Shown one piece after another: positions 7,085 to 51,800 of a stretch of DNA of 64,000 nt. Numbering within the stretch: the first letter of the stretch is position 1; the number at the start of each line of letters is the position of its first letter. The translations under genes and the position numbers were made by a program. The notes beneath the pieces were generated by a model. It was not told the origin of the DNA, did not search any database, and was given only the letters and a program-made list of their open reading frames with translations. This DNA is from Kushneria marisflavi (GTDB lineage Bacteria > Pseudomonadota > Gammaproteobacteria > Pseudomonadales > Halomonadaceae): the NCBI RefSeq assembly GCF_002157205.1, contig NZ_CP021358.1, positions 186,001 to 250,000 of the forward strand. The letters are read 5' to 3'.

Positions 7085-7227
7085 TAAACCCACCCGGTTG
7101 AAGATATACAGACCGGGTATTATCGCAGATCATCGACTTCCAGGGGGATCGATCATGTCGGATCATTTACCGGTATTGATATGATAACGGTATAAAACGC
7201 AGATATCTAACACCTGCCAAATCCTGA

Positions 7228-36663: not shown

Positions 36664-37563
36664 ATGAAGGAAAGCATTGAAGTCGGCATCGTTCAGCAGA
36701 AAGCCTGGAACGACAAACCCAGAAGCCTGAGCGAAAGCGAACGAGGCATTCGAGCCCTGGCGGCACGCGGCGCACGCCTTGTACTGCTGCAGGAGCTGCA
36801 TGCCACGCGCTACTTCTGTCAGTGCGAAGACACCGATATCTTTGATCTGGCAGAATCGCTGGAAGGCCCAACTACACAGTTTCTGGCTGGACTGGCCAAA
36901 GAGCTCGATATCGTCATCGTGGGCTCTATCTTCGAGCGCCGCGCGCCTGGGCTTTATCACAACACGGCCGTGGTACTGGATACCGGTCTTGGGCTGGTAG
37001 GTACCTATCGCAAGATGCATATACCGGACGACCCGGGCTTTTATGAGAAGTTTTATTTCACCCCGGGTGATGCCAGTCGTGGAAAGGGCTTTACCCCTAT
37101 CGACACTTCCGTGGGTCGTCTGGGCGTACTGGTCTGCTGGGATCAGTGGTATCCGGAAGCCGCCCGCCTGATGGCGCTGGCCGGTGCCGACATGCTGCTT
37201 TACCCCACAGCCATCGGCTGGGACCCGGGCGATGACGCCGATGAAAAGCAGCGTCAGAAGGATGCCTGGACGCTGATTCAGCGATCGCACGCCGTCGCCA
37301 ACGGTATCCCGGTACTGGCGGCCAATCGTGTCGGTCACGAAGACGACCCCAGTCAGGTTGGCAGCGGTATCGACTTCTGGGGCGGCAGCTTTATTGCCGG
37401 CGCACAGGGAGAAATTCTGGCACTTGCCGGTGAAGGCACCGAGGAGCTTCTGGTGACCCTCTCATCAGAGCGCAGCGAACAAGTACGGCGCATCTGGCCC
37501 TATCTACGCGACCGTCGTATCGATGCCTATGGTGATATCATCGAGCGGTATCTGGACCGCTGA
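36664..37563 (+). CDS. aguB: N-carbamoylputrescine amidase
   Basis: Nitrilase-superfamily hydrolase that releases putrescine, CO2 and ammonia from N-carbamoylputrescine. The 299-residue protein has the Glu-Lys-Cys triad: E44 in LLQELHATRYFC, K117 in GTYRKMHIPDDPG and C158 in VLVCWDQWYPEAAR. The ATRYFCQ and FYEKFYFTPGD segments are typical of AguB. Gene order aguA-aguB, 16 bases apart, completes the arginine decarboxylase route to putrescine; the decarboxylase is not in the window. Confidence 0.94.
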   Translation: MKESIEVGIVQQKAWNDKPRSLSESERGIRALAARGARLVLLQELHATRYFCQCEDTDIFDLAESLEGPTTQFLAGLAKELDIVIVGSIFERRAPGLYHNTAVVLDTGLGLVGTYRKMHIPDDPGFYEKFYFTPGDASRGKGFTPIDTSVGRLGVLVCWDQWYPEAARLMALAGADMLLYPTAIGWDPGDDADEKQRQKDAWTLIQRSHAVANGIPVLAANRVGHEDDPSQVGSGIDFWGGSFIAGAQGEILALAGEGTEELLVTLSSERSEQVRRIWPYLRDRRIDAYGDIIERYLDR

Positions 37564-37615
37564 CTCAAGGGAGTCATTTCACAGCAGCGATGACTGACAT
37601 CATGGTCATCGCTGC
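37561..37615 (+). terminator. Two stem-loops after aguB
   Basis: A short hairpin, TGACTC-AAGG-GAGTCA (37561-37576), overlaps the aguB stop codon. A second, with perfect 11-bp arms GCAGCGATGAC and GTCATCGCTGC (37584-37594 and 37605-37615), follows. Neither ends in a long T run, so intrinsic termination is uncertain; they may stabilise the 3' end or work with Rho. Confidence 0.5.
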
Positions 37616-37634
37616 CTGCCCTTACCGCCTGTTT

Positions 37635-37685
37635 ACTCATGATTGTGACCTGCATGAGTTCATGCTAAAAAGATAACGGTATATT
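37635..37685 (+). promoter_or_regulatory. Upstream region of the Tus-like gene: inverted repeat and candidate -10
   Basis: ACTCATG (37635-37641) and CATGAGT (37653-37659) form a perfect 7-bp inverted repeat with an 11-base spacer. A possible -10, TATATT, lies at 37680-37685, about 25 bases before the ATG, with only a weak -35 next to the repeat. In E. coli a Ter site overlaps the tus promoter; whether this element plays that part is speculation. Confidence 0.4.
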
Positions 37686-37710
37686 CCCACAGGAAGGAAT
37701 GGAGACGGCC

Positions 37711-38571
37711 ATGTCACCGCAGTATCAGCTGATGGCGGAGCTGGAAAAGGCCTTTGATGACCTTGTCGAGGCCACGGAGGCCCTCATGGCTACGGCACGC
37801 CAGCATCCTCCCACCATGTGGCGCTTTGACGGTGAGGCCGATCTCGACTGGCTGATGCGGGCACTGACCGATTATTGGTATCAGGATGGTCAGGATGGAC
37901 GCGCAACACGCGATCATGTGGGCGTTGTGGTGGCCAATGATGTGCTGCTGGCGCACGCGCTGGACGTCAATCGGTATAAGGATATCTTCGCCCAACAGCT
38001 TGGCGTGGCCCGAAAGCAGCATCCTTCCATGATTGCCGAGCTCAAGGCCACACTACCCTTTCGCCATCCCGTACTGCACGATCATCTCAAGGGAAGCGGC
38101 ATGGCGCGCCTGCATCTCAAGCAGTGCTGGCGACGCATTCCGATCGCGGATGCTCCTGTCTCGCGCATTCGTCTGGCATGGTATTCCAGTGGTCGCTCGA
38201 TCAAGCGCATGAGCGTGGCCGAAGTAGAGGCCAAACTGGCCAGACTCAACAATGAAGCCGCGCATGTTCAGATCCAGTATCGTTTGCTGGCATCACTTCC
38301 CGATGGTGAAATGCTGGCGCAGGTACAAACACAAGCCCCCCTAATGCGCGCCAATCTGTTTTTTCGGGAACCGCTGGAAGATGGGCATACACGCCGCGCC
38401 ATGAACGTGGCCCTGCCACTTTTTGTCCCGGCCATGGATCATCGTCTGCCGCAGATCAATCAGCCGGCGCCAGAGCCACCAGAGAAGCGCACTCGCGCAT
38501 TGCGTGGAGACTCGAAAATCGAAAGCGAGCCCTTCATTCCCAGCCTGCGTATCTATCGATACCGCTATTAA
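37711..38571 (+). CDS. Divergent homologue of replication terminator protein Tus (Ter family)
   Basis: The 286-residue product resembles E. coli Tus (309 residues) along most of its length by eye. Matching blocks: VNRYKDIFAQQL against INKLKTTFEHIV; LP..VLHDHLKG against LP..WVHRHLPG; RLAWYSSGRSIKRM..EVEAKL against RFGWANKHIIKNL..EVLAQL; YRLLASLPDGEML against YQDIAALPQNAKL; and the C-terminus FIPSLRIYRY against IIPRLHLYVA. His123 falls where Tus has His144, the residue that locks the flipped cytosine of Ter; Phe140 is not conserved. Start 37711 has GGAG six bases upstream; the ATG at 37699 has its AGGA too close. Tus binds Ter sites and blocks DnaB from one side. Binding site and function here are inferred. 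Confidence 0.75.
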   Translation: MSPQYQLMAELEKAFDDLVEATEALMATARQHPPTMWRFDGEADLDWLMRALTDYWYQDGQDGRATRDHVGVVVANDVLLAHALDVNRYKDIFAQQLGVARKQHPSMIAELKATLPFRHPVLHDHLKGSGMARLHLKQCWRRIPIADAPVSRIRLAWYSSGRSIKRMSVAEVEAKLARLNNEAAHVQIQYRLLASLPDGEMLAQVQTQAPLMRANLFFREPLEDGHTRRAMNVALPLFVPAMDHRLPQINQPAPEPPEKRTRALRGDSKIESEPFIPSLRIYRYRY

Positions 38572-48836: not shown

Positions 48837-51800
48837 ATGCCATCGCATAGCCACACCATCAGCCCTCTTTCGCCCCCTGCATTGTCCCCTGCCCGGGAAA
48901 ACACACGCTGGCGACTTCCCGAGGGTAGCGCTGATGCGCTCACCATGGCCCATCTGGCCAGCGCCGAGAAGACACCCCTGCTCGTGATAACGCCGGATTC
49001 GGCCAGCGCTCAGCGCATGGCACTGGCATTACGCTTTTTCAGCGACCAGCAGGTTCTCGTTTTTCCCGACTGGGAGACTCTGCCCTATGACAGCTTCTCC
49101 CCACATCAGGACATCGTCTCGGAGCGGCTCCGCACCCTGCGCCAGCTTCAACATCAGTACCAGAGCATTATCCTGGCACCGGTCAATACGCTCATGCAGC
49201 GTCTGCCGCCAACGGACTATGTCGCCGTACAGGCACTGCATCTGGAAAACGGGATGTCGCTGGATCGCGAACATTTTCGTGGCCAGCTTCACCGCGCCGG
49301 CTATCGCGCGGTCGAAACCGTCTACGAACCCGGAGAATATGCCTTTCGCGGTGCCTTGATCGATCTGTATCCGGTCGGCAGCGAGCACCCCCTGCGTATC
49401 GACCTTTTTGATGACGAGATCGACACGCTGCGATATTTCGATCCCGATACTCAGCGCTCGAGCGAGCGCACCGAAAGAATCGAACTGCTGCCAGCCCATG
49501 AATACCCGCTGACGCAGGATGCCATCGCGCGCTTTCGTGAGGGTTTCGAGACGCTTTTTGACGTTGATCCGCGTCACTGCCCGCTCTATCTGGACGCACT
49601 TCAGGGCATTCCTTCTCCGGGCCTTGAGCAGTATCTGCCGCTGTTTTTCGAGCACACGTCGACGCTTTTTGATCATATCGGTGATCAGCTGCGCTGCGCC
49701 CTGATGCCGGGCAGCTTCGAGGCCGCCGAGAGTCATTGGCAATCCATTACCGGTCGATTTGAAAATCTGGGCGTTGACCCTACCCGGCCACTGCTCCCCC
49801 CGGTCAAGGCTTTTGTGCCAGTGGCAGAGCTGTTCGGTCAGATCAACCGCTATCCCCGCCTCCAGTGGCGCACTGATGAAGAAGGCACCCCCGTTGAAGG
49901 GTCAAAACTGCCTGACATCGCCATCGACGCACGCGCCACAAAGCCGCTTGCATCGCTTGAGCAGTTCATGGCGGATCACGATGATGTCAGGGTGCTGTTT
50001 GTGGCCGAGTCAAGGGGTCGGCAGGAAGCCCTGCACGAAACGCTTGCGCCCCTGAACCTCGATCTACATGACATCGACAGATGGCAAGGCTTTCTGGATG
50101 CCCATCAGCCCCATGCCATCGCGGAAGGTGGGCTTGAGCGCGGCATCTGGCTTGAAAGCGACAAGCTGCTGGTACTCACAGAAACCGAGCTTTACGGCGA
50201 AATCGTACGCCAGAGCCGGCGGCGCAGCCGTGCCACGGATGATAATGAACTGGCCATACGTCATCTCTCGGAGCTCAGGGAAGGCGCCCCGGTTGTCCAC
50301 AAGGCGCACGGTGTCGGCCGCTATCTGGGGCTTGAAACGCTCAACGCCGGCGGCATGCCGGCAGAGTTTCTGACACTTGAGTACGCCAGCGGTGCGCGAC
50401 TCTATGTGCCGGTCGACAGCCTCCATCTGATTTCACGTTACGCCGGTGCCAGCGATGACAGCGCCCCTCTACACAAGCTGGGCAGTGACCAGTGGGAGAA
50501 GGCACGGCGCAAGGCAGCAGAAAAGGTACGTGATACGGCGGCTGAACTGCTGGACGTCTACGCCAGACGCGAGGCGCGTGAAGGCTTTGCCTGCGAGCCG
50601 CCGGGACAGGAATACGCACGCTTTGCCGCCAACTTCCCGTTCGAGGAAACCCCGGATCAGCGCATGGCCATTGATGCCGTCATCCATGACATGACCTCGA
50701 CCCAGCCGATGGATCGCGTGATCTGCGGCGACGTCGGCTTTGGCAAAACGGAAGTGGCGATGCGGGCGGCCTTTCTGGCCGTACAGTCCGGACGTCAGGT
50801 GGCAGTGCTGGTACCAACGACCCTGCTGGCACAGCAGCATTTCGATAACTTCCGCGACCGCTTCGCCGACTCCGCCATCAACATCGATATCCTGTCGCGC
50901 TTTCAGGGCGGTAAATTGCAGTCGCAGACACTTGAGCGGCTCAACGATGGCCGCATCGATATCGTTATCGGTACCCACAAGCTGCTGGGCAAGGAACTTG
51001 AGTTTGCCAATCTTGGACTGGTGATCATCGACGAGGAGCACCGCTTTGGTGTCCACCAGAAGGAAAAGCTCAAGTCGCTGCGCGCCGAAGTCGACATTCT
51101 GACCCTGACTGCCACGCCGATTCCGCGGACCCTGTCGATGGCCATGAGCGGCATGCGTGATCTTTCCATCATTGCCACCCCGCCGGCTCGCCGGCTATCG
51201 GTCAAGACCTTCGTACAACAGCGCAATCAGGCCGTGCTCAAGGAAGCCGTCCTGCGTGAACTGCTCAGAGGTGGTCAGGTCTATTATCTTCACAATGAGG
51301 TCAAATCGATCGAGGCCACTGCCGAGAAGGTACGCGAACTGGTGCCTGACGCACGCGTCGGCGTCGCTCATGGTCAAATGGCCGAGCGCGCTCTGGAGCG
51401 GGCCATGTCGGACTTCTACCACAAGCGCTTCAACGTGCTGGTATGCTCAACCATCATTGAAACCGGCATCGATGTTCCCAGCGCCAATACCATCATTATC
51501 GAGCGGGCCGACAAGTTCGGTCTGGCGCAGCTTCATCAGCTGCGCGGACGTGTAGGCCGCTCGCACCATCAGGCCTACGCCTACCTGCTCACTCCCCCAC
51601 CCAAGCAGATCACCACGGATGCCACCAAGCGTCTGGAGGCCATCACACAGGCCGAGGACCTGGGGGCAGGCTTTACGCTGGCCAGCCATGATCTGGAGAT
51701 TCGTGGTGCCGGTGAGCTTCTGGGTGAGGAGCAAAGCGGCCAGATCGAGACCATCGGCTACAGCCTTTACATGGAAATGCTCGATCGTGCCGTCAATGCC

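Follow-up and report, generated by a model that had tools for sequence, protein, structure and literature searches.

Does a gene on the chromosome of Kushneria marisflavi (Halomonadaceae) belong to a replication fork trap of the Tus-Ter kind? The gene lies on the plus strand at 37711..38571 of the window, the whole stretch of 64,000 nucleotides analyzed here, which corresponds to positions 186001-250000 of a single contig of 3,667,185 bases. Its 286-residue product was taken for a Tus-like terminator protein in a first-pass annotation made from the sequence alone. It is very probable that the protein is a distant Tus with Ter sites of its own, and that together they form an apparently complete fork trap across most of the sampled genera of the family.

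The first-pass annotation had aligned the protein by eye with Tus of Escherichia coli. Pairwise comparison shows nothing of this relation: the best direct BLASTP E-value is 2.6, and searches of Pfam, NCBIfam and the PDB with the single sequence found nothing relevant, the weak matches to HrpB2, an acetyltransferase and LegP being treated as noise. The relation appears when alignments are compared. With hhalign, 24 sequences compared with the single E. coli Tus sequence give a probability score of 8 (E = 0.0043), 30 near relatives against E. coli Tus plus L045 give 91.4 (E = 8.9e-7), and 36 wide relatives against the same pair give 98.7 (E = 3.8e-16) over 259 columns, in agreement with the alignment made by eye. 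The fold comparison proposed at that stage had the same outcome, E. coli Tus being the only significant PDB match of the predicted structure. The proposed search with the Pfam Ter family (PF05472) gave a divided result, as a direct match is absent while deeper profiles and bridging relatives reach Tus. No Ter match was found with PF05472 in genomes G000, G015 and G010, and at an E-value of 0.01 the model matches three of the 24 alignment members, one of them the plasmid homologue L044. Two plasmid relatives, found by tblastn with the protein as query, exceed the Pfam Ter cut-off. The family profile A2, with matches in 24 of 369 genomes of the class, covers eight of the nine Pfam Ter matches at the same loci. 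Homology, as read from sequence profiles, and the modeled fold thus show that the gene encodes a distant member of the Tus superfamily.

A trap also requires oriented sites, and an oriented motif clustered at the terminus, which the first-pass annotation had suggested looking for, is present. The conserved candidate site is AAGATAACGGTATAAA, and its core TAACGGTATA was used for exact searches. The Kushneria chromosome has 17 exact copies of the core, all oriented about the dif site. Ten are on the plus strand, from 101790 to 1117467, and seven on the minus strand, from 3078464 round to 34028. The gene for DnaA is at 2126112, and the single dif match, at 51534, is situated within the 68-kb gap in which the strand of the sites switches.

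This arrangement recurs in other genomes of the family. DnaA was located in 28 single-contig genomes, in 17 of which, representing 11 genera, the sites and dif were mapped; the 16 besides Kushneria hold 139 sites, and each has a single dif match. Of the 156 sites in all, 152 follow the rule "minus before dif, plus after", a count made with dnaA as a proxy for oriC and with genome lengths rounded to 0.1 Mb for nine of the 17 genomes. All 84 sites within 100 kb of dif obey it, as do all 100 in the innermost tenth of the arms. As a control in the same genomes, the core read backwards has 26 of its 70 sites fitting the rule and three within 100 kb of dif. Each genome has 4-20 sites, packed near dif, and in 17/17 genomes the innermost opposed pair, 58-156 kb apart, brackets dif. 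The gene lies no more than 400 kb from dif in 15 of the 17 and is transcribed away from dif in every one. In genome G023 the two arms between dnaA and dif measure 2.95 and 0.75 Mb and three of the eight sites break polarity, which suggests a rearrangement.

Conservation of the sites extends beyond the bases used for searching. Among 80 of the 156 sites, from eight of the 17 genomes, whose flanks were read, G at -2 (75/80), A at -3 (66/80), A at -1 (67/80) and A at +10 (56/80) are conserved. Of the 60 sites no farther than 250 kb from dif, 47 have the triplet AGA directly before the core, as do 8 of the 20 beyond that distance; sites far from dif may be weak or due to chance.

The gene was matched in 144 of 151 Halomonadaceae genomes and in 23 of 24 genera, the clade-wide distribution that characterizes a resident tus. 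For the chromosomal copy, the possibility of a purely mobile gene was rejected on this ground. The seven genomes without a match are six of genus g5 (G004, G028, G044, G056, G067 and G078), in which the gene was not detectable in 6/6 genomes, and one that is 77% complete. The sites go with the gene. The 17 genomes that have it contain 156 sites versus 70 for the backwards control, while the six of g5 contain 24 versus 61, which is no excess. Thirty other genomes of the class, most without a Tus-like gene and some with one, contain 83 versus 213.

One candidate Ter site stands next to the gene. The sequence AAGATAACGGTATATT occupies 37670..37685 on the plus strand, with its core at 37674-37683 and the conserved G at 37672, and would serve as an autoregulatory operator. 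Immediately upstream of the gene, the form GATAACGGTATA or one close to it was seen in 19 of the 35 distinct loci. These loci, which are not a random sample, comprise the 30 top matches of the family search and five more, six that were retrieved twice being counted once. The same upstream site is found in L039, L040 and L041, two Bermanella records and one Saccharospirillaceae record. In G023 the site near the gene is located past its 3' end. A sigma-70 scan of 37540-37760 found no promoter, so any occlusion of a promoter by the bound protein would be conjectural.

Several observations weigh against this interpretation. The protein does not reach the gathering cut-off of PF05472; this is not a refutation, since deeper profiles, bridging relatives and the predicted fold all lead to Tus. 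Four of the 156 sites break polarity, one of them in G049 at 1632 kb from dif and three in G023. The binomial probability of the polarity count is 5e-40, a value that treats sites shared by kin as independent and thus overstates independence, because many sites are common to related genomes by descent. Six of the 17 Kushneria sites lie inside open reading frames (ORFs) of 148-664 residues and the other 11 outside ORFs of at least 148 residues; given these positions and the greater degeneracy far from dif, some exact matches are possibly non-working. No site was found at the gene in 16 of the 35 loci, 14 of which belong to genus g20, so that self-repression is not general. The best letter match of the site to E. 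coli TerB is 8/16, which shuffled sequences equal in 70% of cases (P 0.70). Letter similarity to TerB was therefore rejected as evidence, and the earlier expectation that the DNA sites might differ from E. coli Ter was correct. Finally, G015, a genome of the same genus, carries a copy of the gene (L007/L142) with a frameshift close to its C-terminus although 20 polar sites remain, a state that fits either a recent loss or an assembly error.

The remaining contrary points concern the pocket of the protein. In Tus, His144 and Phe140 form the pocket of the cytosine lock, with His144 capturing the flipped cytosine. The first-pass annotation had placed His123 at the position of His144 and had noted that Phe140 is not kept. 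The hhalign alignment agrees on both, placing His123 on His144 and His119 on Phe140, and a histidine thus stands where the phenylalanine is lost. The correspondence of His123 does not hold generally, however. Of 30 close relatives, 27 carry His at this position, and the other three, L039-L041, carry Arg even though the site is kept. In the wide alignment His and Arg each account for 11 of 36. In that alignment Tus Arg198 falls opposite a gap, and Arg133, Arg141, Asn215, Arg265 and Asp267 are strongly kept (31-35 of the 36 relatives). Since the His144 equivalent is so variable, a cytosine lock is put forward as a hypothesis.

The polar sites might instead belong to another terminus system, one of FtsK-guiding or architectural sequences, of which the Tus homologue uses a single copy as its operator. 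FtsK-guiding sequences also flip polarity at dif, and the Kushneria sites within ORFs would fit such a role. They are usually far more numerous, however, than the 4-20 sites per genome found near dif here; the motif also stands at the promoter of the gene in several genera and in Bermanella, and no excess of it occurs in the six genomes of this family that lack the gene. This explanation is accordingly considered unlikely.

Slightly less likely still is that the protein derives from Tus but now acts as a transcription regulator or partition factor and has ceased to block forks, its sites being relics or bound without arrest. The loss of Phe140, the failure of wider relatives to keep the His144 equivalent and the occurrence of several relatives on plasmids are consistent with it, and the authors working on Cedecea neteri doubt that its two Ter sites are used for fork arrest (PMC8707476). 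Plain use as an operator would need no polarity, yet site orientation is kept at 152/156 across 11 genera. The notion that the Tus match and the polar repeat arose by chance or from strand skew could appeal to the absence of a direct Pfam or pairwise match, but it is contradicted by the same polarity, the hhalign score of 98.7 and the PDB fold matches, and hardly deserves credit.

Under the favored interpretation, the protein, a distant Tus, would bind the short asymmetric sites AAGATAACGGTATAAA on both sides of dif. Forks from the origin would pass the sites of their own arm, and a fork running beyond dif would meet the next sites from the opposite face and stop, so that forks would meet within a zone of 58-156 kb around dif. 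Where a promoter site is present, the protein may also repress its own gene, as E. coli tus is repressed by its own product through TerB. In E. coli, where dif is at 1590750, TerB stands to its right, on the plus strand and directly upstream of tus. PMC8707476 assigns it to the group of sites that halt the clockwise fork. As the Kushneria site is laid out like TerB, the blocking face should be its AAGATAACGG end, in keeping with E. coli, where it is the G6 end. The strongest candidate for the pair that would yield the captured cytosine once the helicase opens the site is the conserved G-C pair two bases ahead of the core. By analogy we infer that it plays the part of GC(6), from geometry and conservation only, because letter similarity to TerB is at chance level.

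The superfamily is also represented on plasmids. Tus homologues of Halomonas, Methylophaga, Flagellatimonas, Pseudomonas, Vibrio and Microbulbifer plasmids show 20-48% identity in the alignments; the diverged ones comprise L043, L044, L054-L060 and the plasmid matches from tblastn. Among the plasmid matches listed, 4 of 20 are annotated "DNA replication terminus site-binding protein" and 15 of 20 only as hypothetical. Some Halomonas plasmid homologues already carry this name, which is thus not wholly new. The plasmid homologues differ from the Kushneria gene in that, among nine plasmid loci examined, no promoter had a TAACGGTATA-like site.

A different sequence accompanies the Tus homologue in another gammaproteobacterial family, f32. 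Three genomes of genus g55 (G325, G180 and G431, of which only G325 is a single contig; loci L156, L159, L160 and L181-L200) carry the homologue (L156, L159 and L160), with GGTTATGGGATAA in its promoter region. Counting every match with no more than one mismatch, this sequence has 6, 7 and 8 copies per genome versus 1, 3 and 1 for the backwards control. On the gene-bearing contig its polarity is 6/6, 5/5 and 6/6, four further sites being on other contigs, and the strand switches between two opposed sites at most a few hundred bases upstream of the homologue. No dif-like site was found around this set in 3 kb of G325 or at L159 and L160, the best candidates having 8-9 mismatches. GGTTATGGGATAA is a candidate second Ter code.

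The window contains one more candidate Ter site, ATGATAACGGTATAAA, at 7181..7196 on the plus strand (core 7185-7194), which no ORF of at least 80 residues covers. The first ATG of the terminator gene, at 37699, would give an ORF of 290 residues that also ends at 38571 on the plus strand; the start at 37711 agrees better with the start positions of several relatives. On the 5' side the neighbor is what we take to be an N-carbamoylputrescine amidase gene, and on the 3' side, on the opposite strand, there are a short ORF and presumably a soluble transhydrogenase gene. At least two gene contexts occur around the homologues in the fetched loci. The closest named relatives of the protein are six Kushneria records with 73-93% identity, which fits the early impression of a Halomonadaceae-like chromosome, and no phage record matched it.

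The chances are about even that the larger picture also holds, namely a family-wide trap with its own Ter code, a site re-coded more than once within the superfamily, and arrest without a generally conserved Phe140/His144 pocket, in which case the chemistry of the lock either differs or is not universal. If so, the Halomonadaceae trap would be a domestication beyond the three described, fork traps would be commoner than thought, and the DNA code would shift between clades while the oriented layout stays. The prevailing view of fork traps as rare and recently domesticated from plasmids was built on a Pfam model blind to these proteins. The genus without a detectable gene and the genome that combines polar sites with a frameshifted gene would then be natural experiments on the purpose of a fork trap, and two different Ter codes would offer a means of testing how essential the cytosine lock is.

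The first-pass annotation regarded a fork trap here as unusual, Tus-Ter being best known from Enterobacterales. This has to be qualified, since Galli et al. (2019), using PF05472, report a resident tus for the majority of Enterobacteriales, for Pseudoalteromonas and for almost all Aeromonadales (PMC6549158). The word Halomonas is absent from the main text of that paper. In the literature searched, among the matches listed, no link between Halomonadaceae and Tus and no use of the site or trap layout was found, the six papers that contain the 10-letter core being judged unrelated from their titles. The Halomonadaceae gene resembles the resident tus of Aeromonadales and Pseudoalteromonas in being clade-wide outside Enterobacterales, and differs in that PF05472, which detected those, misses the proteins searched (G000, G015, G010). 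For Pseudoalteromonas, PMC7858055 states that a search with the E. coli consensus gave no ter near the expected region. Toft et al. (2021) sought the vicinal Ter of Enterobacterales first and then scanned the whole genome (PMC8707476); the vicinal sites they examined are 74-83% identical to TerB, unlike the Kushneria site, which is at chance.

Compared with E. coli Tus (PF05472; PDB 1ECR, 4XR1, 4XR2), the protein has about 16% identity, below Pfam detection, with His at the Phe140 position and a gap opposite Arg198, and the letters of its sites differ from Ter. Between the innermost opposed sites lie 58-156 kb, versus approximately 260 kb in E. coli. Nevertheless, profile and fold match Tus over the full length, the gene lies near the terminus and is transcribed away from dif, and opposed site clusters surround dif, with an oriented same-strand site just upstream of the gene in the Kushneria genome. 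Like the type I and type II traps of Enterobacterales (PMC8707476), the system has sites on both arms and a trap around dif, and it resembles type II in that the gene-adjacent site is not the innermost one in G000.
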